From contig NZ_CP095061.1 in NCBI RefSeq assembly GCF_022921055.1, forward strand, positions 3,263,501 to 3,327,500: a stretch of 64,000 nucleotides of DNA. The letters run 5' to 3'. The stretch comes from Hymenobacter volaticus. Its GTDB lineage: Bacteria > Bacteroidota > Bacteroidia > Cytophagales > Hymenobacteraceae. Under the pieces are notes generated by a model. It saw only the letters and a program-made list of their open reading frames with translations. It was not told where the DNA came from and did no database searches. This document shows, piece after piece, positions 14,244 through 64,000 of the stretch (position 1 is the first letter of the stretch; the number at the start of each line of letters is the position of its first letter). The position numbers and the translations under genes are program-made.

Positions 14244-14338
14244 GTCATGCTGAGCGTAGCCGAAGCATCTCGCGTGCTGATGTGAGATTGGTACTCTTGC
14301 GTCAGCACACGAGATGCTTCGACTTCGCTCAGCATGAC
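14244..14338. repeat. Palindromic intergenic repeat, copy 1
   Basis: One arm reads GTCATGCTGAGC-GTAGC-CGAAGCATCTCGC and the other its near-complement (GAGATGCTTCG ... GCTCAGCATGAC), separated by about 35 variable bases. It sits between two genes that end toward each other (SDR and UvrA). The remainder of the 14109-14501 gap has no recognisable feature. Confidence 0.9.
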
Positions 14339-14501
14339 GATAGTGTTACAGCGGCAACATAGGAGGTACTGCGCTTTCGGCTCCGCTGTGAGGATGCTAG
14401 ATGAACATGGCGGTCAAGAAGAAGTGAAAACGGCTAAGTTCTTACTGTCTATACAGTCGTATTCTAAGGACGGCTACCCTCTAGAATTTTAGTGGAACAC
14501 T

Positions 14502-17054
14502 CTAACTCTTGCTTCCTTGGAAACGTGCTAGATACGGGGCCGTACGGCTGCCTTTGGTGTTGATGACTTGCTCGGGCGTGCCAGCGGCTACCACTTGGCC
14601 GCCTTCGTCGCCGGCTCCAGGGCCCATATCCAGTACGTAGTCGCTGCCGGCTACTACGCGCATGTCGTGCTCCACCACAATGACGGTGTTGCCGGCTTCT
14701 ACCAAACCGTTGAGTTGAACGAGCAGCTTTTCCACGTCGGCGGGGTGCAGGCCGGTGGTGGGTTCGTCGAGGACGTAGAGCGAGTTGCCGCGCTGAGCGC
14801 GCTGTAGTTCGGTGGCTAGTTTGATGCGCTGCGCCTCGCCGCCCGATAGCTCGGTGGCGGGCTGACCAAGGCGCAAGTATCCTAGCCCGACTTCGCGCAG
14901 CACCGTGAGGGCCCGGTGTACCGGCGGCTCGTCGGCGAAGAACTCCCAAGAGGCATCCACCGTCATGGCCAGCACTTCCGCAATGTTTTTGTCGCGGTAC
15001 GTGACTTCCAGCGTTTTGGCGTTGTAGCGCGCGCCATGGCAAACCGGGCACGGGGCGTACACGCTGGGCAGAAACAGCAGCTCCACCATCACGAAGCCTT
15101 CGCCCTGGCAGTTTTCGCAGCGGCCTTTCACTACGTTGAACGAGAAACGGCCGGCATCGTAGCGGCGCTTGCGGGCGGCGGGCGTGGCCGCAAACAGCTT
15201 GCGTACGTGGTCGAAAAGACCGGTATAAGTAGCCATGTTGGAGCGCGGCGTGCGACCAATCGGCTTCTGGTCGACGCGCACCAGCCGCTTGATGTGCTCC
15301 ATGCCAGCTACAATGTGGCCACCGGTTTCGGTGGGGGCGGCGCGCTCCAGCGGATCGGCTTCCTCTTCCTCCCCGGCTGTCACATCGAGGCCCAAGTGCT
15401 CAGCCACCAACTCCACCAAAACTTGGCTTACTAAGCTTGATTTGCCAGAGCCCGATACGCCCGTAACGGTAGTGAATACGCCCAACGGGAAGGCCACGTC
15501 CAACTTATCGAGGTTGTTGCGCGTGACGCCTTCCAGCTTCAGCCAGCTAGTAGGCGTACGCGGCGCACGAGCCCCTTGCGTGGTGGCAGTGGTGAATAGG
15601 TAGCGGCGTGTCTGCGAGGTTTTTACTTCGGCTAACCCCGTAGGTGGGCCGCTGTAGAGCACTTCCCCACCTTGCTCGCCGGCGGCTGGCCCTACGTCTA
15701 CTAGCCAGTCGGCTTGCCGGACCACATCGAGGTTGTGCTCGACCACAAACAACGAGTTGCCCGCCCGTTTCAGTGCTGCTAAGGCCGCTAATAAGGCCTC
15801 GGTATCAGAGGGGTGCAGGCCGGCCGAGGGTTCGTCGAGCACATACACCACCCCAAACAGATTGGAGTAGAGTTGCGTGGCCAGCCGCAGCCGCTGCAAT
15901 TCGCCCGGCGACAACGTAGGCGTGCTGCGCTCCAACGACAAATACCCCAATCCTAAATTTAGCAATACCGCCAGCCGGGCGCACAAGTCGGCGGCGATGC
16001 GCTGAGCTACAATAACTTGTTCGGGGTGCGCGGCGTCGTGCTTTTTGCGGCCCGCGGCCGTGCCGTCGGCATAAGGCTTAAGCAGGCCTGCCACCCGCTT
16101 TAGCGGCAGGTTCGCCAGTTCGGCAATATCCAGCCCCGCGAAGGTTACCGACAACGACTCGGGCCGCAGCCGCTTGCCGTGGCAAAGCGGGCACTCGGTG
16201 CTGAGCATGTATTGCAAGGCCCGCTTTTTCATGAGCGGGCTTTGCGTGTTGGCGAAGGTGTGCAACACGTGCCGCTTGGCGCTGCTGAAGGTACCCATGT
16301 AGTTCGGCGGCTCCCGGCGCTTGAGGGCTCGTTGCGTTTCAGCGGGCGAGTAGCCGGGGTACACGGGCACCACCGGTTGCTCGTCCGTGAACAGAATCCA
16401 CTCTCGGTCTTTTTGAGGCAAGTCGCGCCAGGGCCGGTCTACGTCGTAGCCAAGCGTGACCAGGATGTCGCGCTGATTTTGGCCGCCCCAGGCTTGCGGC
16501 CAAGCCGCAATGGCTCGCTCCCGAATCGTGAGCGAATCATCGGGCACCATCGATTGCTCGGTTACCTCGTAGGTGCGGCCCAAGCCGTGACAGGTGGGAC
16601 AGGCGCCCTCGGGCGTGTTCGGCGAAAAGGCTTCGGCATAGATGATGCCCTGCCCCGCCGGATAGTCGCCGGCCCGCGAGTAGAGCATGCGCACCAAGTT
16701 GGAAAGCGTGGTCACGCTGCCCACCGATGAGCGGGTGGTGGGCGTACCACGCTGCTGCTGCAAGGCCACGGCCGGCGGCAACCCCTCAATGACATCCACC
16801 TCGGGCACGGCCATTTGGTGAAACAATCGCCGCGCGTACGGCGACACCGATTCTAGGTAGCGTCGCTGCGCTTCGGCATAGAGCGTCCCGAAAGCCAACG
16901 ACGACTTGCCCGAGCCCGACACACCCGTAAACACGACCAGCGCATCGCGGGGAATATCAACGCTGATGTTTTTCAGATTATGCTCGCGCGCCCCTCGGAC
17001 GTGCACGAAGCCGGTAAACTCTTGGGAGGTATTGGGTTGAGTGTTTTTCGCCAT
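14502..17054 (-). CDS. UvrA-like excinuclease ABC subunit lacking the UvrB-binding insert
   Basis: The ATG at 17054 gives 850 residues, against about 940 for housekeeping UvrA; the 24 codons upstream look non-coding. Walker [10 protein letters not shown] is at 44-52 and a second [10 protein letters not shown] opens the C-terminal half. Zinc-type modules CPTCHG (152) and CPLCHG lie in the N-terminal half and CENCQGEGF...CPVCHG in the C-terminal half. ABC signatures [15 protein letters not shown] and [15 protein letters not shown] are both present. Only about twelve residues separate LYSRAGDYP from [15 protein letters not shown], where E. coli UvrA has well over 100; that missing region is the UvrB-binding domain. 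This makes it a class II/UvrA2-type protein, linked in other bacteria to DNA-damage or DNA-binding-drug tolerance. The housekeeping uvrA is presumably elsewhere. Confidence 0.9.
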
Positions 17055-17172
17055 GGAGTGCAGCGCAACTTGTAAGGAGCTACTGCACCTTGGTACGCAA
17101 AAACACACAATGCTGCCGAGACACACCCTACCCGCCCGGCCACTAGTACCTCACCGTGGCTTCCAACTAAGC

Positions 17173-18132
17173 TTATTCGTCGGTGCTTTTGCCGGACCTT
17201 TGGGGACCACCGGCAAACATGATAGCCAACGTTTTGGCTCCTATTTGGGTGATGTCCTTGGCATAATCTAGCACTTGACCAGTGGTTTTGATTTGCAGGT
17301 TTTGCGCCGTGACGGGCTTCAGCTGCACGCTCTCAAATTCGTAGAGTAGCTTGTGCTTGCGCTCCTTATCGAAGTAGACGACCAGTTTGGTGATGCCCTG
17401 CTTTTCCTTGACGTACACCGGGTGAGCGAAATTCAACATTTGCGGTATTTGGGGCGAGGTCCAGACGTCCAGGGCCACCGGCTTCTCCGACATGCCCCCG
17501 AGGGCCGGGTCGGCGGGCGCGGCGGCGTTCGGCTTGAGCGTGTAGGTGGTTTTCGTGCTCGGGTAGCCTGCTACCAGCGCCGTTTCGGCAGTGGTTTTCA
17601 TGGTGTAGTCGGCGTCGGTAACGGATATGCTTTGCCACACATTCTTGACGCTGCCCGCATCGTAAGTGTAAGCCACTTGGTCGGGGCGGCCTTGGGCGGC
17701 CATTAGCAGCAAGCCGGTGTTCTTGGTGCTGTTGAAGTAATTTTCGAGGTGATACGTAAGGGCATCGGTGCTGACGCGGGCTTCCTGGTTGCGGCAGTAG
17801 ATGGTGCCTTTGCGGGGCAGCATCATGGCCCCCATCGTCATGGCCGGCGGACTCTTCTGGGCCGAAGCCTGCATTTGCTGCTGTTCGGCCGGCGACATGG
17901 CGCCAATAATGCGTTGCATCTGCTCTTGTGGGTTACCCTTCGCCGGATCAAGTTGGCTCAGCACTTTGTCGAAGGGGTTGCCGGGCAACGAAACGCGGGT
18001 GGTAATGATACCCTCTGTGAATGCAGCGGGTGCTGGTGCCTTTGTAGGCTTAGCCGGCAGGTAGTTGGCCGCTGTTAGAGAAACCGTGAGAAGAAACAAC
18101 ATGGCAGCAAAAGGGTGTCGGCTGGGGTGCAT
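17173..18132 (-). CDS. Exported protein of unknown function (DUF4412-like)
   Basis: From ATG 18132 the protein has 319 residues and starts with a signal peptide (HPFAAMLFLLTVSLTAANYLPA). The mature part begins FTEGIITTRVS, which resembles the opening strand of DUF4412-type periplasmic proteins, and continues with a Met/Gln-rich helix (MQRIIGAMSPAEQQQMQ). Later strands read GTIYCRNQEARVS and TTYTLKP. DUF4412 is a guess from this pattern. A longer start at 18213 would place the signal peptide internally. It is divergent from the DinB gene and about 120 bp upstream of uvrA on the same strand. Confidence 0.75.
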   Translation of the reverse strand: MHPSRHPFAAMLFLLTVSLTAANYLPAKPTKAPAPAAFTEGIITTRVSLPGNPFDKVLSQLDPAKGNPQEQMQRIIGAMSPAEQQQMQASAQKSPPAMTMGAMMLPRKGTIYCRNQEARVSTDALTYHLENYFNSTKNTGLLLMAAQGRPDQVAYTYDAGSVKNVWQSISVTDADYTMKTTAETALVAGYPSTKTTYTLKPNAAAPADPALGGMSEKPVALDVWTSPQIPQMLNFAHPVYVKEKQGITKLVVYFDKERKHKLLYEFESVQLKPVTAQNLQIKTTGQVLDYAKDITQIGAKTLAIMFAGGPQRSGKSTDE

Positions 18133-18413
18133 AAGCTGTTGGGGAAAGGAAGAGGGTGAATTAGTGGCTTGTACTCCGCTGCCTAGCTCGACAGTGGAGC
18201 AGAACCGGCACAAAGCTATAGCAATATTTATTCTCCTATATATGATACCTCTGGTTGGCTTTTCAACCGCGTGTACAAAAGCGCGAAATGCAGGCTTTGC
18301 GCTACCCCTTCCGATAGATTATGCCTGTTATTCTAAAATAGCTGCACTTTGCGTTGAACAAGCCGCTCTATCCGTCAATTGGCTGAAACTTCATCTTACT
18401 CCCGCAATTTGCC

Positions 18414-18896
18414 ATGGACCAACAAACCCGAAAAAACCTAGTTGAGCAGTTACGAAGCTTACTTGTGGAGGGCAATGCCCACGTTACGTTCGAGGATGCT
18501 TGCGCCAATGTACCGCCGCACCTGCTGAACCAAGCGGTTCCGGGCCTGCCGTACACTGTTTGGCAATTGGCCGAGCACATCCGGATTGCCCAGTGGGATA
18601 TTGTGGAGTTCTCTATTGATCCGAACCATACCTCGCCCAAGTGGCCCGACGACTACTGGCCCGCGCCGGAATCGAAGGGTGATGCCGCTAGCTGGCAGGC
18701 GACACTAACTCAAATTAAGCACGACCGGGACCGGTTTATTGCTGTGCTTGGAGACTCCTCCCAAGACTTGTTTGCGCCTTTCCCGCACGGCACGGGCCAA
18801 ACACTTTTTCGGGAGGCCCTGCTGATTGGTGACCACAACGCCTACCACACCGGCCAGATTATCCTGGTCCGGCGCCTGCTCAACGATTGGGAATAA
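18414..18896 (+). CDS. DinB family protein
   Basis: The 160-residue protein has the four-helix DinB/YfiT fold pattern. Candidate metal ligands are His55 (WQLAEHIR), His141 and His145 (GDHNAYHTGQI), the usual three-histidine site. The family includes thiol-dependent S-transferases (bacillithiol or other cofactors) as well as uncharacterised damage-inducible proteins; the specific reaction is unknown. No signal peptide. The gene is monocistronic, divergent from the DUF4412-like gene and followed by a palindromic repeat. Confidence 0.88.
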   Translation: MDQQTRKNLVEQLRSLLVEGNAHVTFEDACANVPPHLLNQAVPGLPYTVWQLAEHIRIAQWDIVEFSIDPNHTSPKWPDDYWPAPESKGDAASWQATLTQIKHDRDRFIAVLGDSSQDLFAPFPHGTGQTLFREALLIGDHNAYHTGQIILVRRLLNDWE

Positions 18897-18981
18897 GTGG
18901 ACGAAGCAAGCTGTATCAGTCAATCTTAACTCGTCTGCTCAGCGGAGCCGAAGCCTCGCTCGCTGACACTAGAATAGTATT

Positions 18982-19091
18982 GTCATGCTGAGCGCAGCCA
19001 AAGCATCTCGCTAGGGTGGTAAACCCCTTTACTACTCCTGCGTCAGCACGCGAGATGCTTCGACTGCGCCTGCGGCTCCGCTCAGCATGAC
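18982..19091. repeat. Palindromic intergenic repeat, copy 2
   Basis: The same two arms as the other copies (GTCATGCTGAGCGCAGCC ... GCTCAGCATGAC). The right arm carries a duplicated CTGCGCCTGCGGCTCCGC segment that lengthens it. It lies between the DinB gene and the next co-directional gene. Confidence 0.9.
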
Positions 19092-19266
19092 AAATATGGT
19101 TTGGCAACGTCAGCAACAACCAGACGCCAAGTGTCGCGCCAACAGCGCTTAACAGGAGGGTGCAGGATGGAAGGGCGGCGCAAGGTGGCGTCTTTAGATA
19201 GGTGGTAAGCAGGCCATAGCTGTGTCCTCGTGAACCACTAAAAAAGCCCCACTCCAAAATCGCGCT

Positions 19267-20676
19267 ATGAAAACAAACCCTGTACTACTGTTTGCGGCGC
19301 TCGGCACCGCTTTGCTCTTGACGGCACCGGCTTCAGCCCAAATAGGCACCCGGTTTCCGTCGGAGCGCAAAGTGGTGAAAGACCCCGTTACGGGCACTAT
19401 GCTCACCTTCCTGACCAGCACTCCCAAAGGCGACTCCAAAATCTACCAAACCCATAACCAGTGGACCTCTGATGGGCAGTGGCTGATTTTCCGCTCGGGC
19501 CGCGTGCCCAAAGAAGCCATGGCCGTGAATGAGAAGACGGGCGAGATGGTGCAGGTAACGGAAGGCGGCTACACAGGCATGCTCAACATTGCCCGCAAGT
19601 CGATGAAGCTTTACTTCATGCGCAACGTGGGTGCCGAAACAGCGCCCAACGCCGCTTCCGACCCTGCCCGTAGCGTGCAAATCATCGAAGTGGACCTTGC
19701 CAAACTGTTTGCCGACAGCAAAGCCGGTAAGATGCAGCCCGCCAGCGTGTACCAGCGGGTATGCGGCACCACCCCGCCCGAAATTGGCGCCGGTGGCGAC
19801 ATGGCCCTCGATGGCAACGAGGACGTAGTGTACTTCCGAGTGGGCAAGACCGAAGCCGCTAAGCACCTGCCCGCCGACACCAAAATCAGCAGTGCCTTTG
19901 GGCCCCGCAACATGGGTGCGGGTCCGGCGGGGTTGGCCAGCATGAACATCAAGACCGGAGCCATCAAGCACGTAGTGTCGGTACCATTTCAGATTGGGCA
20001 CGTGCAAACCAACCCCTGGGTGCCCGGCGAAATTATCTTCTGCTGGGAAACCGGTGGTAAGTCGCCGCAAAGGACCTGGACGGTGCTGGCCGATGGCACC
20101 GGCTTACGCCCGCTCTACCCCGAAGCCGATTTTGAGTGGGTGACGCACGAGGCCGTTATTGCGCCCGACGAAGTGGCCATTGCCATCATGGGCCACCGCA
20201 AAATCAACTTCAATAAAGAAGCTACGGCCACGGCTAGCACCAGCGCCCAAGCCACCACCCCCGACCAGCGCAACCCCGGCCAGGAAAACGCCTGGGGCCC
20301 CTCCGGCAGCCGCGAAAAGCCGACCGGCCTCGGCATCGTGAATTTGCGCACCCGCGAGATGACCATTGCCGGCCAAACCCCGAGCGGCAGCGGCCTCTGG
20401 CACGTGCACGGCTCGTCGGATGGGCGCTGGGCTGTTGGCGACGACTTTTCGCGCAGCCTCTACCTTATCGACCGACACACCCGCGAAATGATACTGCTGA
20501 CCACCGGCCACAAAGAAACCGCCGCCGACCACCCCCACCCCACGTTCAGCCCCGACGGCACCAAAATTCAAATCCAGTCAGCCATGCTTTCCGCCGACAA
20601 CCGCTCAATGAACATTTGCATTGTGCCCGTGCCAGAAGCCTGGCTTAAACGCAAGTACCCACAACCCGCTAAGTAG
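19267..20676 (+). CDS. Oligogalacturonate lyase-like exported protein (PL22 type)
   Basis: A signal peptide (KTNPVLLFAALGTALLL, cleavage after ASA/Q) precedes a 445-residue mature protein. It begins IGTRFPSERKVVKDPVTGTMLTFLT, then IYQTHNQWTSDGQWLIFRSGR, the opening blades of the seven-bladed oligogalacturonate lyase propeller. Later HVQTNPWVPGEIIFCWETGG, WVTHEA, LWHVHGSSDGRWAVGDD and DHPHPTFSPDGTKI supply the His residues expected around the Mn site. The family cleaves 4,5-unsaturated digalacturonate by beta-elimination in pectin breakdown. It fits the pectin-related genes at 57.5-63.8 kb, though it stands alone here. The Ala/Thr-rich insert near residue 320 is probably a loop. Confidence 0.85.
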   Translation: MKTNPVLLFAALGTALLLTAPASAQIGTRFPSERKVVKDPVTGTMLTFLTSTPKGDSKIYQTHNQWTSDGQWLIFRSGRVPKEAMAVNEKTGEMVQVTEGGYTGMLNIARKSMKLYFMRNVGAETAPNAASDPARSVQIIEVDLAKLFADSKAGKMQPASVYQRVCGTTPPEIGAGGDMALDGNEDVVYFRVGKTEAAKHLPADTKISSAFGPRNMGAGPAGLASMNIKTGAIKHVVSVPFQIGHVQTNPWVPGEIIFCWETGGKSPQRTWTVLADGTGLRPLYPEADFEWVTHEAVIAPDEVAIAIMGHRKINFNKEATATASTSAQATTPDQRNPGQENAWGPSGSREKPTGLGIVNLRTREMTIAGQTPSGSGLWHVHGSSDGRWAVGDDFSRSLYLIDRHTREMILLTTGHKETAADHPHPTFSPDGTKIQIQSAMLSADNRSMNICIVPVPEAWLKRKYPQPAK

Positions 20677-20794
20677 GAACTGCTAGTCCAGGCGTCAGTC
20701 CTAGCTGTCTGGCGGTCGGCTACCTAAGTAGGTTGCCTTGCAACAGGCGAGAAGCATCTAGCTAGAGCACAGAAACACAGCTTTGCAGCAGCAA

Positions 20795-20847
20795 AAGCCC
20801 CACCGGAAGGATGCCTACTAAGTGTAAGCATCCTTCCGGTGGGGCTT
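20795..20847. terminator. Strong bidirectional terminator
   Basis: A perfect 20 bp stem (AAGCCCCACCGGAAGGATGC and its complement) encloses a 13-base loop between two genes that end toward each other. T-runs flank it on both strands (GTTTTT on plus, CTTTTGC on minus). Confidence 0.93.
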
Positions 20848-20868
20848 GTTTTTAACTGAACTCATATC

Positions 20869-21963: not shown

Positions 21964-22025
21964 CTGCACAGCCTTCCAATGTAGTTGGCCTTGATACGCA
22001 GTGTTGAGGGGAAAGTATGGGGGTT

Positions 22026-22044
22026 TTACTTCAATTTGAAGTAA
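22026..22044. promoter_or_regulatory. 19 bp palindrome, candidate operator
   Basis: TTACTTCAA-T-TTGAAGTAA is a perfect inverted repeat in the divergent gap between the AI-2E permease and the Bcr/CflA exporter. Its size and symmetry suit a dimeric repressor site. A second looser pair, TCGACCTTA/TAAGGTCGA, follows at about 22072-22111. Which gene is controlled is not known. Confidence 0.5.
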
Positions 22045-22111
22045 GTTTAATTTCGTGATAATCAGCTAGCTCGACCTTAGCACAACATTTACGTGGAGTA
22101 CTTAAGGTCGA

Positions 22112-23708: not shown

Positions 23709-23790
23709 CACAAACGCAAGCATCGCAAAAGCTAAGCGCCGCCTTTTTAGGTTAAAACTTGAGAGCTACTGCTCTCAAATAAGTCATAGT

Positions 23791-23988
23791 TAGGGGTGGT
23801 TGGCTAATCGCTGAGGAACCAACTAGACCGTCCTGCTGAGCTTGCCGAAGCATCTCACGTGCTGAGTTGCACAAGCGACGTTGTAACACGTACTGTCATG
23901 CTGAGCGCAGCCGAAGCATCTTGCTCGCATCGTTGAATTAGTTTTGCAACCTCAGCACGCGAGATACTTCGGCTGCGCTCAGCATGAC
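23791..23988. repeat. Palindromic intergenic repeat, copy 3 (with partial copy and fragment)
   Basis: A complete unit at 23895-23988 is preceded by a degenerate left arm at 23830-23866 (GTCCTGCTGAGCTTGCC). A short fragment, TTAGGGGTGGTTGG, near 23790-23803 also occurs in the composite element at 56188-56477. The gap separates two genes that end toward each other and contains nothing else recognisable. Confidence 0.88.
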
Positions 23989-31956: not shown

Positions 31957-32051
31957 GTCATGCTGAGCTTGTCGAAGCATCTCGCTCGAATCGTTGCACA
32001 AGCATTAGCGTGTACCGCCCTAGCGAGATGCTTCGACAAGCTCAGCATGAC
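31957..32051. repeat. Palindromic intergenic repeat, copy 4
   Basis: The arms are of the GAGCTTGTCGAAGCATCTCGC subtype and almost perfectly complementary, with about 35 bases between. It lies upstream of the D-aminoacylase and downstream of selO, both leftward. No other feature is seen in 31773-32135. Confidence 0.9.
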
Positions 32052-34131: not shown

Positions 34132-34281
34132 GTCATGCTGAGCGGAGTCGAAGCATCTCGCTAGTGTAGTAACCTCAGTTGGCATCACAACGTCAGCACG
34201 CGAGATGCTTCGGCTCCGCTCAGCATGACGAGTACTACTCTAACGTCAGCGCGCGAGGTATTTCGACAAGCTCAGGATGAC
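34132..34281. repeat. Palindromic intergenic repeat, copy 5 plus an extra right arm
   Basis: A complete unit at 34132-34229 is followed by a second, slightly degenerate right arm at 34245-34281 (GTCAGCGCGCGAGG ... CTCAGGATGAC). It sits between two leftward genes; the rest of the gap shows nothing else. Confidence 0.88.
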
Positions 34282-41228: not shown

Positions 41229-42419
41229 TCACACCACCGCAAGGCGGCTGATGGGCTGGTAGCGCGTAAACTCTATTTCGGGAGCCAAATACCCCGCGCG
41301 CACGGGCTCTTCGCGCAACAAATCGGTGCTCAGGTACTTTTTGTTGCTGTCGCAGAGTAGCGTAACCACGGTAGCATCCGGCCCGAGTTCTGCGGCCAGC
41401 CGAATTGCCCCAATAACGTTGGCCCCCGACGAAATGCCAACCGCTAAGCCGAGCTGCGTGGCTAGTTTTTGCGCCATCAAAATAGCATCGCCATCGTTGG
41501 CTTGCACCACCGCATCAAGCTTGTCGAGGCGCACGAGGGCCGGAATGAACTCGTCGGAGATGCCTTGAATGCGGTGCGAGCCCACTTTGTAGCCCGTAGT
41601 AAGCGTGGGTGACTCAGCGGGCTCTAAGGGATGAATCCGTACTGCCGGGTTCTTGCTTCGCAAATAGCTACCAACCCCCATCACGGTGCCGCCCGTGCCC
41701 ACCCCCGCCACGAAAGCATTGGGGGTGCGCCCCAGGCCGTTAAGCTGCTGCCATATCTCGACGCCCGTGGTGCGGGCATGCGCTTGGGCATTGAGCTTGT
41801 TTTCGAATTGCCGGGGCAGAAACACATCCGTGCGCGAAGCAGCTATTTCTTCGGCCAACTGGATGCTGCCCAAAAAGCCGCCTTGGGCTTTGCTAATCAA
41901 GGTTATTTCGGCGCCCAAGCTCCGAATAATGTTGACTCGTTCGGCGCTCAGCCAGTCGGGCATCAGGATGCGGACTGGGTGGCCAAGGGCCCGGCCAATG
42001 GCGGCAAAGGCAATGCCGGTATTGCCGCTAGTGGCCTCCACTATAGTGTCGCCCGGCTTGATTTCGCCTCTTTTGTACGCTTCCTGCAAGATATGCAACG
42101 CCATCCGATCCTTGAGGCTGCCCGTCAGGTTATAGTGCTCACACTTCACGTAGATGCGGCCGGGCAGGCCCTGGTAATGGTAGTGCAGTTCCAGCATGGG
42201 CGTGTTGCCTACCAAATGCCACAAGTGGTTGAACTTCTCGGCTAGCTCCGGCGACAAACAACAAGCCGTGGCCGGATGCTCTAATTCTTCTGCCCGGACG
42301 GCCTTAGAACTTGGAAGGAACTCTGCTCCTGCCGCAGACGACCACCGGGCAGAAGTAGCGCGGACGCCAGTGAGAAAAGAAACGGGTACAGCTTGAGGAG
42401 CGCAGGTAGCAACGGACAT
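41229..42419 (-). CDS. PLP-dependent cysteine synthase/cystathionine beta-synthase family protein under SAM riboswitch
   Basis: The 396-residue fold-type II PLP enzyme has an atypical 60-residue N-terminal extension. The core begins [13 protein letters not shown]; Lys103 in TGSLKDRMA binds PLP; TSGNTG at 130-135 holds the phosphate; [20 protein letters not shown] and GISSGANV are the other cofactor loops. Members make cysteine from O-acetylserine plus sulfide or cystathionine from homocysteine plus serine. The upstream SAM-I riboswitch puts the gene under control of the methionine/SAM level, favouring a role in sulfur assimilation or homocysteine/cysteine interconversion. No C-terminal CBS domains are present. 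It is transcribed alone and ends at a bidirectional terminator. Confidence 0.92.
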
Positions 42420-42535: not shown

Positions 42536-42562
42536 AGCACCTTTTCGATGAGCATCTTTCAA

Positions 42563-42673
42563 CTTATCTTCTCCCAAACCGGCCGCAGCCGCCTCAGAAC
42601 AGGATTTAGCACCTGGTATTTCTACTGGTTGCTAAGGCATCATAGGGCCTGTCCCTCCGCCTTTCTTGATAAG
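42563..42673 (-). ncRNA. SAM-I (S-box) riboswitch
   Basis: The aptamer reads CTTATCAAGAAAGGCGGAGG, then GACAGGCCCTATGATGCCT, then TAGCAACC, ACCAGGTGCTAAATCC and finally AGATAAG. P1 (CTTATC/GATAAG), P2 (AGGC/GCCT with the internal kink-turn), the GCAACC joining strand and the GGTGCTAAATCC P3 strand are all present and match the S-box consensus. It precedes the cysteine-synthase family gene by about 145 bases with a terminator between, so high SAM should switch the gene off. Confidence 0.95.
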
Positions 42674-42696
42674 TGCTCCGGTGAAGGAGCGTGCCG

Positions 42697-47070: not shown

Positions 47071-47303
47071 GGCATAAGGCGGTAAATACTAGATATCAAC
47101 ACAACTGGTCAGCAGCATCCAGATTATCCAAAGCCTCTTGCAATCCAGACGATTGTATAATATTAAAAAAAATTAATATTTAAAGCAATATCTGTTTTTC
47201 GTATCACGCTGTGTGGGCACTACAAGTGCAAGGGCTTTACAAAATACCGTCCTGCTAAACGCATTCGAAGCATCTAGCACTAATGCTGCAACACTATCGG
47301 GAC

Positions 47304-47532
47304 GTCATGCTGAGCGGAGCCGCAGGCGCAGTCGAAGCATCTCGCGTGCTGACGCAGGAGTAGTAAATGACTTTACCACCCTAGCGAGATGCTTCGGCTG
47401 CGCTCAGCATGACTTTATATCTGCGAGGTCCCACTGAAAGGTCAGCACGCGAGATGCTTCAACAGGCTTAGTATGACCAGTTAGTGTGGCAACGGCAGCA
47501 TGGCTAGATGGCTCCGGCGGGCTCAGCATGAT
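47304..47532. repeat. Palindromic intergenic repeat, copy 6 with extra degenerate arms
   Basis: A complete unit at 47304-47413 (left arm carries a GCCGCAGGCGCAG duplication) is followed by a right arm at 47441-47477 and a fragment near 47510-47532. The rest of the 47071-47579 gap holds only AT-rich sequence around 47160-47190. Confidence 0.88.
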
Positions 47533-52282: not shown

Positions 52283-52500
52283 GTCATGCTGAAATAATAG
52301 TCCTGCTGAGCTTGCCGAAGCATCTCGCTTGAACCGTTATCAAACTAGCCCGTCATGCTGAGCGGAGTCGAAGCATCTCGCTCGAGTCGTTGAGTTTAGC
52401 ACCACAACGTCAGCACGCGAGATGCTTCGACTCCGCTCAGCATGACCGGTAGTGTTGCAACCTCAGCACGCGAGATGCTTCGGCGGCGCTCAGCAGGATG
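52283..52500. repeat. Palindromic intergenic repeat, copy 7 (cluster of arms)
   Basis: A complete unit at 52352-52446 is flanked by a degenerate left arm from 52300 (GTCCTGCTGAGCTTGCC), a shorter start at 52283 and an extra right arm up to 52500. The cluster shows that arms can multiply locally. Confidence 0.9.
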
Positions 52501-52600
52501 GTTGTTACTTGGTTTTAATGCGGCTTAACCCTCCTTTACTATTAGTCAACTGGAGATGATAACTTACTGTCCAGGCTTTTGTGGAGCGACATTTTCCTTT

Positions 52601-56059: not shown

Positions 56060-56187
56060 GGACCTCACCCTAAAATTTCCATTCACAAGAAGATAAAAGC
56101 TCGGCGTTAAGTTTTAATGAAGTACCGACAAAGGCTGCTCTTCTTCTCTCAAAGAGAAGCAAAGTACTAGTTCTAAAAGATTAGAAA

Positions 56188-56477
56188 GCTAGTTTTCCTT
56201 CTCATCTGAGAAGGGTTAGGAGTGGTTGATTGGCTGTTGAACAACCTATAGAACAGTCATGCTGAGCGGAGTCGAAGCATCTCGCTAGGGTGGTATACTC
56301 TTTATCACCACAACGTCAGCACGCGAGATGCTTCGGCTCCGCTCAGCATGACAATACCACTATAACGTCAGCAGGCGAGATGCTTCGACAAGCTCAGCAT
56401 GACAGGTAGTTTAGCGACGTTAATATGCAGATGGTCAACCACCCCTTGCCCCTCCTCAGATGAGGAGGGGAACTAGC
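56188..56477. repeat. Composite inverted-repeat element enclosing palindromic repeat copy 8
   Basis: Imperfect outer arms (GCTAGTTTTCCTTCTCATC... at 56188-56230 and the complement CAACCACCCCTTGCCCCTCC... at 56433-56477) each contain their own small palindrome (CTTCTCATCTGAGAAG; CCTCCTCAGATGAGGAGG). Between them lies palindromic repeat copy 8 (56256-56403) with an extra right arm. The whole resembles a MITE into which, or around which, the other repeat has settled. The rest of the gap from 56060 to 56543 has no gene. Confidence 0.75.
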
Positions 56478-56543
56478 CTTCTAGCCTGCTAGCTCGATAG
56501 TTTTTCTAGCAATGGCTGTAAGTGAGAAGCTGCGGCTTTCTAC

Positions 56544-57362: not shown

Positions 57363-57558
57363 AGTATTGCGGGTTGATGAATTCCTCAAGACTAGATTAT
57401 CGGGCTGTAGGTTACATGAAGTTTGCGTTTCCTGCTCAGCGGACGAACTGCACTCACCTGTTTTTAGCTCCGAAAAGCCCCTCGCCTAAGCATGACAGTA
57501 CAGGCAGGCGGACTACAGGACGGATAGTACTTTTAGTGACGTCACCTACCACTCTTCC

Positions 57559-58896
57559 ATGAACCGTACTCTTTTCCTGCCGGCCGCTTTCCTTGGCGTG
57601 CTTTTTACTTCGGGCGTCGCGGCGCAGTCGGGCAAGACGAGCTACAAGTTTGATTTTGGCGCCGGTAGCGTAGCGCCCGGTTATCGGCAGGTACTCCCAT
57701 CTGCTACGTACTCCGAGGAGCGCGGCTACGGTTTCGACTTCAACACGACCGTTTCGGCCGTGGACCGCAAGGGTAAGGATGCGCTAAAAGGTGATTTCGT
57801 GACCAGTGACAAACCCTTTTATTTCTCGGTGGATTTGCCGGAAGGCAACTATAATGTCACCGTCACGCTCGGCGACTTAAAGAAGCGGACCTCCACGATG
57901 GTGAAGGCAGAATCGCGCCGCTTGCTGCTAGAAAAGACGGAAACCGCGCCCGGCCAATTCACCACCGAAACCTTCACGATTAACATCAAAAACCGCCGCA
58001 TCAACGACACCCTGACGGTGGGCTTGAAGCCGCGGGAAGTAGGCAAGCTGGATTGGGACAACAAACTCACCCTGGAATTCAACGGCGCGGCCACTTGCCT
58101 CAACGCCCTGGAAATAACGCCGGCGCCCAACGCCATAACGGTTTTTCTGGCCGGCAACTCCACCGTCGTCAACCAGGACGATGAGCCGTGGGCGGCGTGG
58201 GGCCAGATGATTCCGCGCTTCTTCAAGCCAGGCGTAGCCATAGCTAACCACGCCGAATCGGGGCTGAGCTTGGGCAGTTTCCTGGGTTCGCGCCGCCTCG
58301 ACAAGGTGCTGAGCGTGATGAAGCCCGGCGACTATCTATTCGTGGAATTTGGACACAACGACCAGAAGGAAAAAGGTCCCAACGACGGCGCCTACAAATC
58401 CTACACCGAGCGGCTACAATTCTTCGTGCGAGAGGCAAAAAAGAAGGGCGGGATTCCGGTTATCGTGACGTCCACGGCCCGCCGCAACTTCGACGAATCA
58501 ACAGGCAAAAACGTGAACAACCTCGGCGACTACCCCGATGCGGCCCGCAAAGTGGCCCAAGAAGAAGGCGTGGCGCTCATTGATTTGAACGCCATGACCA
58601 CTACGCTCTACGAAGCGCTGGGAGTCCAAGCCTCGATGAAAGCCTTCGTACACTATCCCGCCAACACCTACCCCGGCCAAGAGAAGGCCCTGGCCGACAA
58701 CACCCACTTCAACCCCTACGGCGCCTACGAAATTGCGAAGTGCGTGGTAGAAGGCATCAAAGCTAACAAGCTAGGTTTGACGAAGTACCTCAAATCGGAC
58801 ATCCCGGCCTTCGACCCCGCGCATCCCGATGCCCTCGACAAGCTAGTGTGGGCCGACAGCCCCCGTAATACGGTGATAAAACCCGACGGAAACTAG
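57559..58896 (+). CDS. Rhamnogalacturonan acetylesterase (CE12, SGNH) with N-terminal carbohydrate-binding-like domain
   Basis: The 445-residue exported protein has a signal peptide ending SGVAA/Q. Residues 25-190 form a beta-sandwich like those on CE12 enzymes (YKFDFGAGSVAPGYRQVLP, YFSVDLPEGNYNVTVTLG). The SGNH esterase follows: nucleophile Ser201 in AGNSTVVNQ, GHNDQ at 265-269, and Asp380/His383 in DNTHFNPYGA. It should remove acetyl groups from rhamnogalacturonan I in the periplasm so that lyases and hydrolases can act. It is first of a rightward set with GH105 (57 bp downstream) and the GH43-like gene. A smaller CE12 lies at 63015. Confidence 0.93.
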   Translation: MNRTLFLPAAFLGVLFTSGVAAQSGKTSYKFDFGAGSVAPGYRQVLPSATYSEERGYGFDFNTTVSAVDRKGKDALKGDFVTSDKPFYFSVDLPEGNYNVTVTLGDLKKRTSTMVKAESRRLLLEKTETAPGQFTTETFTINIKNRRINDTLTVGLKPREVGKLDWDNKLTLEFNGAATCLNALEITPAPNAITVFLAGNSTVVNQDDEPWAAWGQMIPRFFKPGVAIANHAESGLSLGSFLGSRRLDKVLSVMKPGDYLFVEFGHNDQKEKGPNDGAYKSYTERLQFFVREAKKKGGIPVIVTSTARRNFDESTGKNVNNLGDYPDAARKVAQEEGVALIDLNAMTTTLYEALGVQASMKAFVHYPANTYPGQEKALADNTHFNPYGAYEIAKCVVEGIKANKLGLTKYLKSDIPAFDPAHPDALDKLVWADSPRNTVIKPDGN

Positions 58897-58953
58897 CGTT
58901 AACCTAAGCAGCACCTGAACCGCAAGCCTCACTACCACCCTACTTTACCTCAT

Positions 58954-60335
58954 ATGAAAAGAACTTCTTCTCAGCACCTGACAGTAGGTTTATTAGGATT
59001 AACTCTGCTGGTTGGCACGCCTTTGCTGGCCCAGAAAGCCCCGGCAAAAACGACCCCAGTAAAAGCCAACGACACCACCACGCCGCTGCACCTGTTGCAG
59101 CCGGATTATCCGGTGCCGTATGGCAAAACCAAAGCCGAGGAAGTGAAGCAGGTACTGGACCGGGTGTACACGTATTTGGATGCCGCCACGCCTGCCCAGC
59201 TTGTTGATAAGCAAACCAATGCCGTTGTTAGCACCAGCGCCAAGTTCAACCCCAACGCCGTTATCAAGCCCGGCGACTTCCGCCTAACCAGCTACGAATG
59301 GGGCGTTACGTACTCGGGCATGCTGTTGGCCGGCGAAGTAACCGGCGACAAAAAGTACACTGCCTATACCTTCGACCGGCTTAAGTTTCTGTCGGAGCTG
59401 GCGCCGTACTATAAGGAGTTCCAAAACGCCAATCCGAAGGCGCCTACGCCCATGCGCGGCTTCATGAACCCGCACGCCCTCGATGATGGCGGGGCCCTAA
59501 CGGCCTCCATGATCAAAGCCCAACGCGCCGGCCTGTCCGCCGATTTGCGCCCCCTGATTGACGGCTTCGTCAATTACATCATGGCCAAGGAGTTCCGGCT
59601 GACGGATGGCACTTTGGCCCGCAACCGTCCGCAGCCGAACACGCTCTGGCTCGACGATATGTACATGGGCATTCCGGCCCTAGCGCAGATGGGTAAACTT
59701 ACCGGTGAGAAGCGTTACTACGATGAAGTAGTGAAGCAGTACACGCAGTTTTCGCAGCGTATGTTTAACCAGCAAAAGGGGTTGTATATGCATGGCTGGG
59801 TGCAGGAAATGAGCGTGCACCCGAGTTCCACTGGGCCCGGGCCAATGGATGGGCCCTCATGACTACCGTTGACATTCTGGACGTGCTACCCGAAGACCAC
59901 CCCGGCCGCCCTGCCATGCTAGCGCAGCTAAAGGCCCACGTAAAAAGCCTAGCGGCGCTGCAAGCCGGCAGTGGCTTCTGGCACCAGCTCCTGGACCGTA
60001 ACGATTCTTATTTGGAAACCTCAGCCACGGCCATTTATGCCTACGCCATTGCGCACGGCATCAACAAAGGCTGGCTCGACACTAAGGCTTACGGTCCCAT
60101 GGCTTTACTTGCCTGGAACGCCGTGAGCACGAAAGTCAACACCAAAGGGCAAGTGGAAGGCACCTGCGTGGGCACTGGCATGGGCTTCGACCCGGCATTC
60201 TACTACTACCGTCCCGTGAATGTGTACGCCGCCCACGGCTACGGCCCGGTTATCTTAGCGGGCGCCGAAATCATCCGTTTGCTGAAAACTCACCCATCCG
60301 AAATCAACGACAGTTCCGTTCAGATAACCAACTAA
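58954..60335 (+). pseudogene. GH105 unsaturated rhamnogalacturonyl hydrolase split by a one-base frameshift
   Basis: The first ORF (58954-59862) has a signal peptide (LTVGLLGLTLLVGTPLLA/Q) and the N-terminal half of a GH88/GH105 (alpha/alpha)6 barrel: YEWGVTYSGMLLAGEVTGD, LDDGGALTASMIKA and TLWLDDMYMGIPALAQMGKLTG. The second ORF from 59859 continues MTTVDILDVLPEDHPGRPAML through DPAFYYYRPVNVYAAHGYGPVILAGAEII. Near 59823 one G is missing: CCGAGTTCCACTGG read as CCGGAGTTCCACTGG gives VHPEFHWARANGWALMTTVD, the expected family sequence. Joined length is about 460 residues. The enzyme would cut the unsaturated galacturonyl residue from rhamnogalacturonan lyase products. Real inactivation or an indel error cannot be told apart here. 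Confidence 0.9.
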
Positions 60336-60393
60336 AAAAGCTTAGCAACCAGCCTGAACAGCCTGTTGCGCATGCTGACGTTGCCAAACTATT

Positions 60394-60487
60394 GTCATGC
60401 TGAGCGCAGCCGAAGCATCTCGCTCGACTCATTAAATTAGTTTTGCAACCTCAGCACGCGAGATGCTTCGGCTGCGCTCAGCATGAC
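60394..60487. repeat. Palindromic intergenic repeat, copy 9
   Basis: A complete unit with almost perfect arms inside the pectin cluster, between GH105 and the GH43-like gene. It may uncouple their expression. Reading through it from ATG 60443 gives HARCFGCAQHD-type peptides seen at other copies, so that upstream start is an artefact. Confidence 0.9.
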
Positions 60488-60535
60488 GTAGCGCCTGACG
60501 TGGCGCTTGCTCGCTCATTCTCTCATTCTATTTCA

Positions 60536-61510
60536 ATGCACAGAAGCACTTATCGAGTTGCCGTACGTATTTGCACCGCGCTAGGTGTTTTTGGGCTTGC
60601 CTTGGCTGCCCTGCCCGCGTTGGCGCAGCAGCCAGTCAAGAAAGGAGAGCCGCTGGTGTTTTCCTACTTCAAAGGCAACGGCGAAGATGGTCTGCACCTC
60701 GCCTACAGCCGCGACGGATACTCTTGGACTTCCCTGAAAAAAGACAGCACCTTCCTGCGCCCCACCGTGTCGAAAGACAAACTCATGCGCGACCCCTGCA
60801 TCATCCGGGGGAAAGATGGTTTGTTTCACATGGTATGGACAGTGAGTTGGAACGACAAAGGCATTGGCTACGCCAGTTCCAAAGACCTAATCACCTGGAG
60901 TGCGCAACAGTTTGTGCCCGTGATGCAAAAAGAAGCGGAAGCTCGCAACTGCTGGGCCCCGGAAATCACCTACGATGCTGCTACCGGCGCCTACGTCATC
61001 TACTGGGCCACAACTATCAAGGGCCGCTTTCCCGAAACCCAAAGCACCGCCGACGCGGCCTACAACCACCGCATCTACTACGTCACGACCAAGGATTTCA
61101 AAACCTACTCCGATACCAAGCTGCTCTACGAACCCGGCTTCAACGTCATCGATGCCACTATTCAGCGCGACGGCAAGCGGTACGTAATGTTCCTGAAAGA
61201 CGAAACCCGCGAGCCGGCCCAAAAGAACCTGCGTGTGGCGTTCAGCAACAGCATTACGGGTCCGTACAGCAAAGCCTCGGCTCCCATCACGGGCAAGTAT
61301 TGGGCGGAAGGTCCCACAGCTGTGAAGCTCGGCAACGAGTGGCTGGTATATTTCGACAAGTACACTGAGCACAAATATGGCGCGGTGCAATCCACTGACC
61401 TCCAAACCTGGACCGACGTATCCGACAAAGTGCAGTTCCCCAAAGGCCTACGCCACGGCACCGTTTTTCCGGTGACCGAGAAAGAACTTAATGTGCTATT
61501 GAAGCAGTAA
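60536..61510 (+). CDS. GH43-like glycoside hydrolase, exported
   Basis: From ATG 60536 (MHRSTYRVAVRICTALGVFGLALAALPALA/Q) the protein has 324 residues with a signal peptide. The five-bladed propeller starts LVFSYFKGNGEDGLHLAYSRDGYSW. LMRDPCIIRGKDGLFHMVWTVSW supplies an Asp at the usual catalytic-base or pKa-modulator position, NCWAPEITYDAATGAYVIYWATT the next, and VIDATIQRDGKRYVMFLKDE and WAEGPTAVKLGNEWLVYFDKYTE the likely acid Glu in AEGP. The family removes arabinose, xylose or galactose side chains, which fits rhamnogalacturonan I breakdown with the neighbouring GH105 and CE12 enzymes. Confidence 0.87.
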   Translation: MHRSTYRVAVRICTALGVFGLALAALPALAQQPVKKGEPLVFSYFKGNGEDGLHLAYSRDGYSWTSLKKDSTFLRPTVSKDKLMRDPCIIRGKDGLFHMVWTVSWNDKGIGYASSKDLITWSAQQFVPVMQKEAEARNCWAPEITYDAATGAYVIYWATTIKGRFPETQSTADAAYNHRIYYVTTKDFKTYSDTKLLYEPGFNVIDATIQRDGKRYVMFLKDETREPAQKNLRVAFSNSITGPYSKASAPITGKYWAEGPTAVKLGNEWLVYFDKYTEHKYGAVQSTDLQTWTDVSDKVQFPKGLRHGTVFPVTEKELNVLLKQ

Positions 61511-61552
61511 AAGGGGTAATTAGACTAACGCTGTTTAAACAGTCGCTCGACC

Positions 61553-61711
61553 GTCATGCTGAGCGGAGTCGAAGCATCTCGCTAGTGTAGTATACTTAAT
61601 GAGCGTCACAATGTCAGCACGCGAGATGCTTCGACAAGCTCAGCATGACGGTAGCACCACAACTTCAGCACACGAAATGCTTCGACTCCGGCTGCGCTCC
61701 TGGCTTGATGC
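61553..61711. repeat. Palindromic intergenic repeat, copy 10 plus a degenerate arm
   Basis: A complete unit at 61553-61649 is followed by a decayed right arm ending in GCTCCTGGCTTGATGCGCC (to 61711); the same ending recurs at the right edge of the window. It sits between genes that end toward each other. Confidence 0.9.
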
Positions 61712-61761
61712 GCCAGTTTCGTAGGATGTTAGCTGACTTCCTAAATCGATATAGCTTTTGC

Positions 61762-62754
61762 TTAGGGCTGCACTGCATTTGCGAGCGGTTTTCCTTGTTC
61801 GAAGTCGGTGATGTTCTGTAGGGTAATGCGTGCGATGTTGTGTAAGGCGTCGGCGGTGAAAAAGGCTTGGTGGCCGGTGACAAGCACATTGTTGAACGAG
61901 AGCAGGCGCATGAACACGTCATCCTGAATGACTTTGCCCGACATATCCTCGAAAGATAAGTCGCCTTCCTCTTCGTACACATCCAACCCCAAGTATTTGA
62001 TCTTTTCGCACTTAAGACCCTCAATCACCGCTCGTCCATCAATAAGGGCGCCGCGGCTGGTGTTGATGAGCATCATGCCCTCTTTCATCTGGTTGATGGA
62101 CTCCTCGTTGATCAGATGATACGTCTGGGGCGTGAGGGGGCAGTGCAACGAAATAATGTCGGATTGAGCGTACAGGTTCGGGAGGTTGGTAAACTCCACG
62201 CCTAGCTCGTTGGAAGCGGCGCTAGGTTGCACATCATACCCGAGCACCCGGCAGCCGAAGCCTTTTAGAATCCGGGCCGTCACCAACCCGATGGCGCCTA
62301 GCCCAATAATACCGACCGTGCGGCCGTGCAAATCGAAGCCCATGAGGCCATTGAGGGCAAAGTTGCCTTCTCGGACTCGGTTGTAGGCGCGGTGCGTTTT
62401 GCGGTTCAGCGCCAAAATCAAGGCCAAGGTATGTTCCGCCACGGCATAGGGTGAATAAGCCGGTACGCGCACCACAGGCAAGTTGAGGGCGACGGCCGTT
62501 TTCAGGTCCACATTGTTGAAGCCCGCGCACCGCAGAGCCAGCAGCTGAACCCCATTTTCCGCTAACTGGTGCAGCACCTGCGCATCAACCACATCATTGA
62601 CAAACACGCATACTACCTCCGTGCCTTGAGCCAGTGGAGCAGTGCTGGCATTGAGCGGCACTTCCAGAAACCGGAGCTGATGGCCGTACTGCTGATTAAC
62701 TTCTTCGAAAAATTGGTGGTCGTAGGGCTTGGTATTGAAGAAGGTGATAGTCAT
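61762..62754 (-). CDS. ldhA: 2-hydroxyacid dehydrogenase, D-lactate dehydrogenase type
   Basis: The 330-residue protein begins MTITFFNTKPYDHQFFEEVN, as fermentative LdhA does. RCAGFNNVDLKTA, VPAYSPYAVAEHTLALILALNRK and the NAD-binding GLGAIG (151-156) follow. Catalytic residues are Arg234 (NTSRGALID), a Glu near 263 (DVYEEEGDLSFED) and His295 (VTGHQAFFT). It reduces pyruvate to D-lactate with NADH in the cytosol. The LdhA assignment rests on these motifs; other D-2-hydroxyacids remain possible. It interrupts the pectin genes and is probably unrelated to them. Confidence 0.93.
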   Translation of the reverse strand: MTITFFNTKPYDHQFFEEVNQQYGHQLRFLEVPLNASTAPLAQGTEVVCVFVNDVVDAQVLHQLAENGVQLLALRCAGFNNVDLKTAVALNLPVVRVPAYSPYAVAEHTLALILALNRKTHRAYNRVREGNFALNGLMGFDLHGRTVGIIGLGAIGLVTARILKGFGCRVLGYDVQPSAASNELGVEFTNLPNLYAQSDIISLHCPLTPQTYHLINEESINQMKEGMMLINTSRGALIDGRAVIEGLKCEKIKYLGLDVYEEEGDLSFEDMSGKVIQDDVFMRLLSFNNVLVTGHQAFFTADALHNIARITLQNITDFEQGKPLANAVQP

Positions 62755-62899
62755 GCAGAGGAAATAAGAAGGAACCCGAGAAAGAACAACTACGCTCCGA
62801 CCCTATTGTGTTGAGAAGTCGGCAGTAAATCAAATAACCACGTTTTCTGTACCACTGAGCGGCCGCGTTGTTGCCAAACAAGCTGTTTGTTCATCACAA

Positions 62900-62948
62900 C
62901 GCCGCGCAACAAATCCAGAAAAGGCAGTTCTGAATCCGTTGCGCGGCG
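62900..62948. terminator. Hairpin in the gap upstream of ldhA
   Basis: CGCCGCGCAAC/GTTGCGCGGCG forms a perfect 11 bp stem with an imperfect inner TCCAGAA/TTCTGAA pairing. It follows the leftward CE12 gene; no T-run on the minus strand beyond TTGTTG, so the terminator call is tentative. Confidence 0.55.
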
Positions 62949-63014
62949 CATTATTATGAACAATACGGGTCTACTACCAAGCGTAAGTTGACAGGCCGTT
63001 ACCTACTAGCCGCC

Positions 63015-63845
63015 TTATGCTTTGACCATGTATTTGAGGAGCGGGTTCTTCTTGATGCTCTTCAGCCCATCAACTACCGATTCGGCGTTTTGGCGGGCGC
63101 CGGCCTCGATGGTGTGGGTGTGGTCGGTGGCGTTGAAGTACGTGCTTTTCACTTTCGCCTCGCCTTCCTTGTCGTATTTGTCGGCAACAATTTTGTTGAG
63201 GTCAATGAAGTAGGCACCGCCTTGCTTGGCGGCTTCGGAGGCCCACAGGCCGTAGTCGGCGGTGGCGCGGTTGGCTTTGCCGGCAGTCCAGGTATTGCGT
63301 GGAATGGGCGAGCAAACATAGACCGTGGCGCCTTTGGCTTTGGCCTCGGCAATGAATTGGCGTAGGTACCAACCGTAGCTGTGCACCACTTCCTGTTGCT
63401 TCTTGATGGGGTTGAAGATTTCTTGGCTTTCGTCGCCGTTGCTTTTGATGGTGCCCCGCGCCCGGGCCGTATCGGCTAGCGGGCCGTTGTCGTTGTGGCC
63501 GAACTGCATGATCACGAAGTCGCCGGGCTTGATATTCGCTTGCACTTTGTCCCAGAGGCCGTTGGTGCGGAACGTTCGGCTGCTGGTGCCGCCGAGGGCG
63601 TTGTTGCGCACCGCAAGGCGGGTGGTATCGAAATGAGCCGGCAGGAAATTGCCCCACCCCCATAGGCCACCGTCGCCCTTGCCTTTGCCATTCTTCACCG
63701 TCGAATCACCAATCAGGAACAGTGTTGGTTTCTTGGAAGCTTGCGGCAAGATGGTGAAAGCAGAAAGGGCAAGTAGCACGAGCAACAAGCTGTAGGTTAA
63801 AACTCCTTTGCTGCGCTGCGTGCTTTCGTGTGGTTGGTGTTTCAT
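63015..63845 (-). CDS. Rhamnogalacturonan acetylesterase (CE12, SGNH hydrolase)
   Basis: The 276-residue protein has an N-terminal hydrophobic signal or anchor (GVLTYSLLLVLLALSAFTIL). Block I is LFLIGDSTVKNG with nucleophile Ser48. Gly/Asn of the oxyanion hole are in NNALGGTSSRTF, block III is QFGHND at 114-119, and the catalytic Asp241/His244 are in DHTHT. It lacks the N-terminal binding domain of the CE12 protein at 57559. It should deacetylate rhamnogalacturonan in the periplasm. The promoter should lie in the short space before repeat copy 11. Confidence 0.93.
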   Translation of the reverse strand: MKHQPHESTQRSKGVLTYSLLLVLLALSAFTILPQASKKPTLFLIGDSTVKNGKGKGDGGLWGWGNFLPAHFDTTRLAVRNNALGGTSSRTFRTNGLWDKVQANIKPGDFVIMQFGHNDNGPLADTARARGTIKSNGDESQEIFNPIKKQQEVVHSYGWYLRQFIAEAKAKGATVYVCSPIPRNTWTAGKANRATADYGLWASEAAKQGGAYFIDLNKIVADKYDKEGEAKVKSTYFNATDHTHTIEAGARQNAESVVDGLKSIKKNPLLKYMVKA

Positions 63846-63882
63846 TCGTTTAATTTTTAGTCTCTATACAAACTATTTATCT

Positions 63883-64000
63883 GTCATGCTGAGCGCAGTG
63901 CAACGAAGCCGAAGCATCTCGCTAGTGTGTTAAATGCCTTACTATCGTAACGAGTCGAGTGAGATGCTTCGATCCCTGGCTTGATGCGCCACATGCTCCG
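63883..64000. repeat. Palindromic intergenic repeat, copy 11 (runs to the window edge)
   Basis: The left arm carries an insertion (GCGCAGTGCAACGAAGCC), then a degenerate right arm (GAGTGAGATGCTTCGATCC) and the TGGCTTGATGCGCC ending also seen at 61711. The neighbouring gene on the right is outside the window. Confidence 0.85.

Follow-up and report, generated by a model that had tools for sequence, protein, structure and literature searches.

Head-to-head dimers of a CGTC-type REP hairpin in Hymenobacter volaticus and the hairpins beside small solitary GIY-YIG nuclease genes of the genus

The window analysed in this study is a stretch of 64,000 nt of Hymenobacter volaticus DNA, and it contains eleven loci of a palindromic repeat. 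These repeats are head-to-head dimers of a CGTC-type repetitive extragenic palindrome (REP) hairpin and form a genus-wide family in Hymenobacter, and they are probably associated with a small solitary GIY-YIG nuclease whose gene lies elsewhere in this genome. We examined the window together with a wider stretch of 464 kb around it and with the whole genome of 7.1 Mb (G000). When the window was scanned with the arm query GTCATGCTGAGCGNAGNCGAAGCATCTCGC, allowing up to nine mismatches, 24 rows were obtained, two of which (59317 and 62750, both at nine mismatches) are probably due to chance; three shuffled windows gave one arm row altogether, at nine mismatches. Addition of the GCTTGTCG loop form and of a longer-loop form led to ten clusters and one at the window edge, in agreement with the eleven copies reported in a preliminary description of this DNA. 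The unit of two arms around a centre, also reported there, was confirmed: in 39 core dimers of the H. volaticus region and of the near relative YC55, the core unit mostly measures about 95 bp and consists of 30-base arms and centres of 31–50 bases.

The loci in the window, given here without strand, are as follows, and the core unit starts at the first coordinate unless a separate core is named. Three of them lie in convergent gaps between genes, namely 14244–14338, 61553–61649, which has mixed loop types, and 23830–23988, in which the core 23895–23988 is accompanied by an extra arm at 23830. Tandem gaps hold 18982–19091 (right arm with a lengthened loop, 19055–19091), 31957–32051 (both arms of the GCTTGTCG loop type), 34132–34281 (core 34132–34229 plus an extra right arm), 47249–47532 (core 47304–47413 with a lengthened loop in the left arm, and degenerate extra arms on both sides), 52300–52499 (core 52352–52446 with one extra arm on each side), 56256–56403 (core 56256–56352 plus an extra right arm) and 60394–60487. 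The element at the window edge, 63883–64000, is composed of a lengthened-loop left arm (63883–63917) and a degenerate right part, and is situated in a tandem (- -) gap. The extra arms that adjoin several of these core units correspond to the half-units already noticed in the preliminary description.

Each arm is by itself a short hairpin of the form GTC-AT-NNN-GA…GA-NNN-AT-C, whose stem in H. volaticus is ATGCT/AGCAT. Five Watson-Crick pairs starting with A-T are followed by GA/GA edges and sometimes by two more pairs; CGTC-tagged REPs are described with a stem of 8–9 bp starting with A-T pairs and a loop of 4–5. C or T stands before the GTC foot in 60 of 71 arms from the H. volaticus region and in 31 of 40 from YC55. 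We scanned a contig database for covariation, leaving three stem bases per side free, and obtained at least 120 stretches, 80 of them with listed titles. Among the matches listed, which came from Hymenobacter, Verrucomicrobia, Clostridia, Bacteroidales, Kiritimatiellae, Flavobacteriia and others, all three free positions were complementary in 147 of 161 free-stem matches, representing more than ten stem sequences. Fully complementary stems accounted for 41 of 43 such matches in 26 loci listed as Hymenobacter and for 106 of 118 in the remaining 94, which include L111–L150, some of them probably Hymenobacter. A single arm folds weakly (-2.1 kcal/mol as DNA), and one dimer folds strongly (-39.4 as DNA and -68.5 kcal/mol as RNA).

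Over 464 kb, a facing arm pair is present in 31 of 35 clusters, and 11 of the 35 have three or more arms; the arm pattern has 237 matches in the H. volaticus genome, 120 forward and 117 reverse. These features, together with the short hairpin arms, bear out the REP-like nature suggested earlier. The statement that arm subtypes always pair with a compensating partner was not confirmed: 29 core pairs of the 464 kb comprise 21 GCGNAG/GCGNAG, 3 GCTTGTCG/GCTTGTCG and 5 mixed pairs, and the pair at 61553 in the window is one of the mixed type. Each arm is followed by one of three tail types (GTGCTGACG, TAGTGTGGT and TCGACTCGT) or by an unclassified tail, and the 27 classified cores of the H. volaticus region and the 12 of YC55 show the tail pairings 1-1, 1-2, 1-3 and 2-3, with no 2-2 or 3-3 pair among them. 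The centres of the dimers are therefore not random. The twelve best centre pairs match at 85 to 100% identity, some of them in opposite orientations, and the median of all pairs is 64%. Two YC55 dimers 1.3 kb apart (L178:434 and L178:1700) have identical 37-bp centres, which points to recent copying or conversion. In the window the asymmetric dimers hinted at a bias with replication orientation, but this faded when the 464 kb were considered (7:2 for tail pairs 31:13 and 5:3 for 21:12).

The placement of the clusters relative to genes was studied with gene calls from a simple caller of our own. Ten clusters of the window comprise three in convergent gaps, seven in tandem gaps and none in the ten divergent gaps, a result that is weak by itself (P 0.07 when judged by gap number and 0.016 when judged by bases). 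Of the 35 clusters in the 464 kb, 25 are tandem, nine convergent and one divergent, two of the "convergent" clusters really flanking a GIY-YIG gene missed by the caller; the expected number in divergent gaps is 6.6 by gap number and 10.8 by bases (P 0.006 and 4e-5). Among 15 clusters in 80 kb of YC55, four are convergent, 11 tandem and none divergent (P 0.038 and 0.023). The absence from the ten divergent gaps of the window, as described previously, thus stands, and "excluded" was too strong a word in view of the single divergent case, at 198624 of the 464-kb stretch. A preference of REPs in general for tandem and convergent gaps has already been reported (PMC3733652). In H. volaticus and YC55 together, 28 of the 36 clusters situated in tandem gaps begin 70–150 bp past the upstream stop codon, a count that was reached in 0 of 10000 random placements, and some of these tandem loci are common to H. 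volaticus and YC55 and so are not fully independent.

The genome of H. volaticus has three matches to the GIY-YIG family PF01541, one at C1:3094887, in a frame of 99 aa, and the others in frames of 608 and 516 aa. The first represents the only small GIY-YIG gene found, G000:C1:3094887-3095177, located about 168 kb from the window and encoding an intact protein of 96 aa (PF01541 E 2.1e-14). Residues Y4, Y15, R25, H29, E64 and N83 are invariant in 16 aligned related proteins, and we take these GIY-YIG motif residues to have catalytic roles. Repeat dimers with the GCT stem are present on both sides of this gene, 189 bp before and 153 bp after the domain. We then surveyed 80 listed PF01541 places in frames shorter than 300 aa in 49 Hymenobacter genomes, weaker ones such as those of G024 being below the listing; at least 42 of the 49 genomes have at least one small GIY-YIG gene.

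With the strict arm pattern, arms were found within 150 bp of 26 of the 80 listed small genes and within 600 bp of 30; the controls within 600 bp were 0/20 for large GIY-YIG genes and 0/30 for Y1 transposase genes, and one of the 20 large genes had arms within 1500 bp. With a general rule for CGTC hairpins, 78 of the 80 listed small genes have a hairpin within 300 bp, and 54 have hairpins on both sides, with a common stem across the gene in 52 of these 54. The same rule gave 0/20 for large GIY-YIG genes and 0/16 for Y1 genes, and random places in H. volaticus DNA satisfied it on one side in 5.8% and on both sides in 0.12%. Other small called genes (80–150 aa) had a hairpin in 3 of 33 cases in H. 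volaticus, 1 of 20 in G039 and 0 of 3 in YC55. In an ungapped inverted-repeat search across GIY-YIG genes the controls also reached 49, and we draw no conclusion from its scores; L273 and L274, the only two loci in which the hairpin rule found nothing, show common flank sequence in this search. Arms facing each other often enclose the gene, so that it looks like an insertion in a dimer. The presence of hairpins beside almost every small GIY-YIG gene examined in the genus points to an enzyme that may spread or use the repeats.

The type of the flanking stem follows the protein. On a quick tree of 70 proteins and 98 columns, in which many branches are unresolved, the stem types require 13 changes, compared with a mean of 42 for shuffled types and none of 200 shuffles needing so few; each of the types TTGC, TTCC and GCC makes up one side of a starred branch. 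The nearest protein neighbour has the same stem in 60 of 70 cases, and in 50 of 70 when only neighbours below 80% identity are considered, the shuffled mean being 13 in both. Stem counts in H. volaticus, which has one GCT-flanked gene, are GCT 237, GCA 3, CCT 0 and TTGC 0. Across genomes, copies of a stem are more numerous where a gene flanked by that stem is present for GCA (P 0.019), CCT (P 0.024) and TTGC (P 0.001), and a joint permutation over stems gave 1/5000 with G024 left out, all these values being uncorrected for kinship; the pattern searches allow mismatches, so that related families overlap in these counts, as with the GTCATTCAGAGC family among the matches listed in one of the searches. 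Arm copy number is weakly related to how many small GIY-YIG genes were listed for a genome (rho 0.25, P 0.08). Other observations were made during these searches: a further repeat family, GTCATTCAGAGCGNAGCGAAGAATCT, has many copies among the matches listed in G008 and G016, listed pairs of the ATTGC family in G016 and G031 are about 126–129 bp apart from start to start as against about 60–70 bp for most listed pairs of the other families, and the ATCCT family of G026 counts 139 forward and 145 reverse matches, 50 of which, listed on C1, are all +, probably as an effect of the listing.

Comparison with near relatives gives information on the turnover of the repeats. YC55 has 40 arms in 80 kb and a GCT-flanked gene whose protein is 90% identical to that of H. 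volaticus, and a second relative in YC55 (55% identical) is flanked by ATCCT hairpins. G039 has 14 GCT arms in its genome, and its only match to the H. volaticus protein is a GCA-flanked gene. Arms are also present in YC55 at 10 of 11 H. volaticus loci with matched flanks (10 of 13 in the reverse direction), and in G039 at 1 of 20 loci with matchable flanks, where the non-coding DNA is too diverged for exact insertion sites to be compared. At the ten loci common with YC55, the tail pair of the core differs in seven, and the other three are unclassified, two of them being alike by eye; common loci with differing core centres suggest replacement in place.

The arm pattern was matched in 48 of 79 genomes, that is, in H. 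volaticus, in 46 of 48 other genomes of the genus (0 to 633 matches per genome) and in 1 of 30 genomes of other genera, G064, which has four matches at three mismatches. The same arms are present in named Hymenobacter records. Of 324 open reading frames (ORFs) near arms in 120 loci spanning several phyla, seven families were recurrent at E below 1e-6; five were identified as GIY-YIG (three loci), ABC transporter, histidine kinase, DegV and methionine synthase, and the other two span two loci each.

On these grounds we consider, with a probability of roughly 0.7, that the repeats are nuclease-associated CGTC-type REP dimers belonging with the small solitary GIY-YIG nuclease of the same genome. 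The nuclease would recognise the single-stranded hairpin by its fixed GTC foot and GA/GA loop edges, the variable stem serving as an address, and would nick at the foot while DNA is being replicated, taken up or repaired. Copies would then spread, or overwrite each other, as dimers by repair or strand transfer, and those falling in genes or promoters would be lost, which would leave survivors about 100 bp past stop codons.

Several observations weigh against this nuclease association. The general rule was written after the flank repeats had been viewed and is loose, giving 10 hairpins in a shuffled H. volaticus stretch compared with 71 in the real one, and the strict pattern reached only the 30 of 80 genes mentioned above. 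The flanks travel with the gene, so that the agreement between tree and stem could be joint inheritance; among neighbours below 70% identity only 31 of 70 share the stem (shuffled mean 13), and the ATGTT stem (four rows) is scattered on the tree. Presence of a GCT-flanked gene does not predict the GCT copy number (P 0.54), and G019 and G024 have many GCT arms (633 and 627) with no GCT-flanked gene seen, the small genes of G024 being below the listing. Neither cleavage nor movement was observed, and the comparison with relatives yielded no clean empty site with a target duplication. In other Bacteroidota, 6 of 30 PF01541 loci (one per genome, best-scoring first, from 148 genomes of the phylum) have such hairpins, two of them on both sides, and at greater distance from the genes these loci have a background of 0.056 per kb; the link thus extends past the genus, yet it is no property of all small GIY-YIG proteins.

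The independence of GCT copy number from the gene also leads to an unlikely alternative, in which REP dimers were there first, solitary GIY-YIG genes homed into them as guests, and the repeats are spread by something else. GIY-YIG domains do occur in homing endonucleases (PMC1564403), and the frequent position of the gene between facing arms looks like insertion in a dimer; however, the tracking of the protein tree by the stem type and the same stem across the gene in nearly all two-sided loci speak for a closer tie, and hairpins persist beside the gene in genomes almost without GCT arms (pattern matches 0 in G020, 1 in G036 and 2 in G034). It is less probable again that the repeats are kept mainly as RNA, forming structures at 3' ends that work in both directions and terminate transcription or protect mRNA. 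The placement past 3' ends, the narrow offset from the stop codon and the very stable RNA fold would suit such a function, and because of the fold of one element and the offset an mRNA-end role is possible. The terminator function proposed in the preliminary description was not supported in its classical form of a hairpin followed by a T-run: of 31 dimer clusters, 5 (16%) have TTTT no more than 12 nt beyond one of their ends, which is no clear excess over the 9.7% obtained for intergenic places chosen at random. In addition, G039 lacks arms at nearly all matchable loci, and purifying selection on a spreading element would leave the same placement.

Two explanations by transposases appear very improbable to us. 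Mobilisation by a RAYT (TnpA_REP, a Y1 transposase), which the preliminary description had considered, would fit the REPIN-like dimer anatomy and the Y1 matches in 53 of 79 genomes; but no PF01797 match was obtained in the H. volaticus genome (97% complete), none of 30 fetched Y1 loci of relatives had arms in flanks of up to 1.5 kb at up to eight mismatches, and arm copy number is unrelated to Y1 number (rho 0.07). The Y1 gene flanked by the repeat and the GTAG foot that characterise RAYT-REPIN systems were both absent, the foot here being GTC. We give equally little credence to miniature inverted-repeat transposable elements of a DDE-type insertion sequence with terminal inverted repeats of about 30 bp. 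Inverted ends, related centres and the wide range of arm numbers among genomes of one genus are what such elements would produce, but single arms are themselves hairpins with covarying stems, and none of the five identified ORF families near arms is a transposase.

If the association of the repeats with the GIY-YIG nuclease is true, it would account for the multiplication of hairpins without a transposase and would provide natural nuclease/hairpin pairs for studying recognition of folded single-stranded DNA. With the pairing present in 78 of 80 listed genes of one genus, and with joint changes of stem and protein, the missing transposase of CGTC REPs becomes a simple question of binding and cutting. 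As a tentative extension, whose chances we judge to be slightly below even, solitary GIY-YIG nucleases could be the missing enzymes of CGTC-tagged REPs generally, with a lineage-specific stem address on a common scaffold of foot and loop, living between facing sites and making single-strand cuts that drive spread and centre replacement.

Two other features of the window are recorded here. Positions 1–4420 contain two long minus-strand ORFs with many repeats of 60–80% identity spaced by about 159 bp, probably encoding a repetitive protein. An S-adenosylmethionine (SAM) riboswitch (RF00162, 78.3 bits) is located at 42561–42675 (-), upstream of the ORF 41229–42419.

Among known systems, the Ssn proteins of Neisseria are reportedly GIY-YIG nucleases that cut single strands at NTS sites within dRS3 repeats. 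As in that reported case, a solitary GIY-YIG protein of about 100 aa with intact motif residues is tied here to a high-copy CGTC-type repeat that lies beside the gene; the Hymenobacter system differs in belonging to another phylum and in having several coexisting stem families, and its cleavage would be of the same kind only by analogy. The novelty of the link between GIY-YIG proteins and REPs is lower if the Ssn work already covers flanking hairpins in other taxa. The present clusters also resemble bacterial interspersed mosaic elements (BIMEs), which are mosaics of REPs in alternating orientation with set linkers, and differ from them in sequences, linkers and associated enzyme. BIMEs of enterobacteria are named in PMC2817692. 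Facing hairpin dimers flanking a cognate gene are likewise found in GTAG REPs and REPINs with RAYT (PMC3116915, PMC6006769), and in this sense our loci are REPtron-like, although the enzyme is GIY-YIG rather than HuH/Y1 and the foot is GTC rather than GTAG. We found no literature joining GIY-YIG nucleases with REPs in the searched material, which included parts of PMC1564403 and PMC12306157, most subscription papers being outside the search. The closest likeness is to the CGTC-tagged REPs (Di Nocera et al., 2013; PMC3733652), which in the available text of that paper occur in five phyla, have no dedicated transposase and include dRS3 of Neisseria as CGTC-1. With these the Hymenobacter repeats share the C/T-GTC foot, the intergenic head-to-head dimers between tandem and convergent genes with few in divergent gaps, and the lack of a flanked Y1 gene; the A-T first pairs and the short loop may be a further likeness. 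The repeats described in that text lie near the 3' end, within less than 20 bp in most convergent cases, whereas ours lie about 100 bp past stop codons; and while the same text mentions neither a GIY-YIG gene nor Hymenobacter, a GIY-YIG gene adjoins the repeats here.

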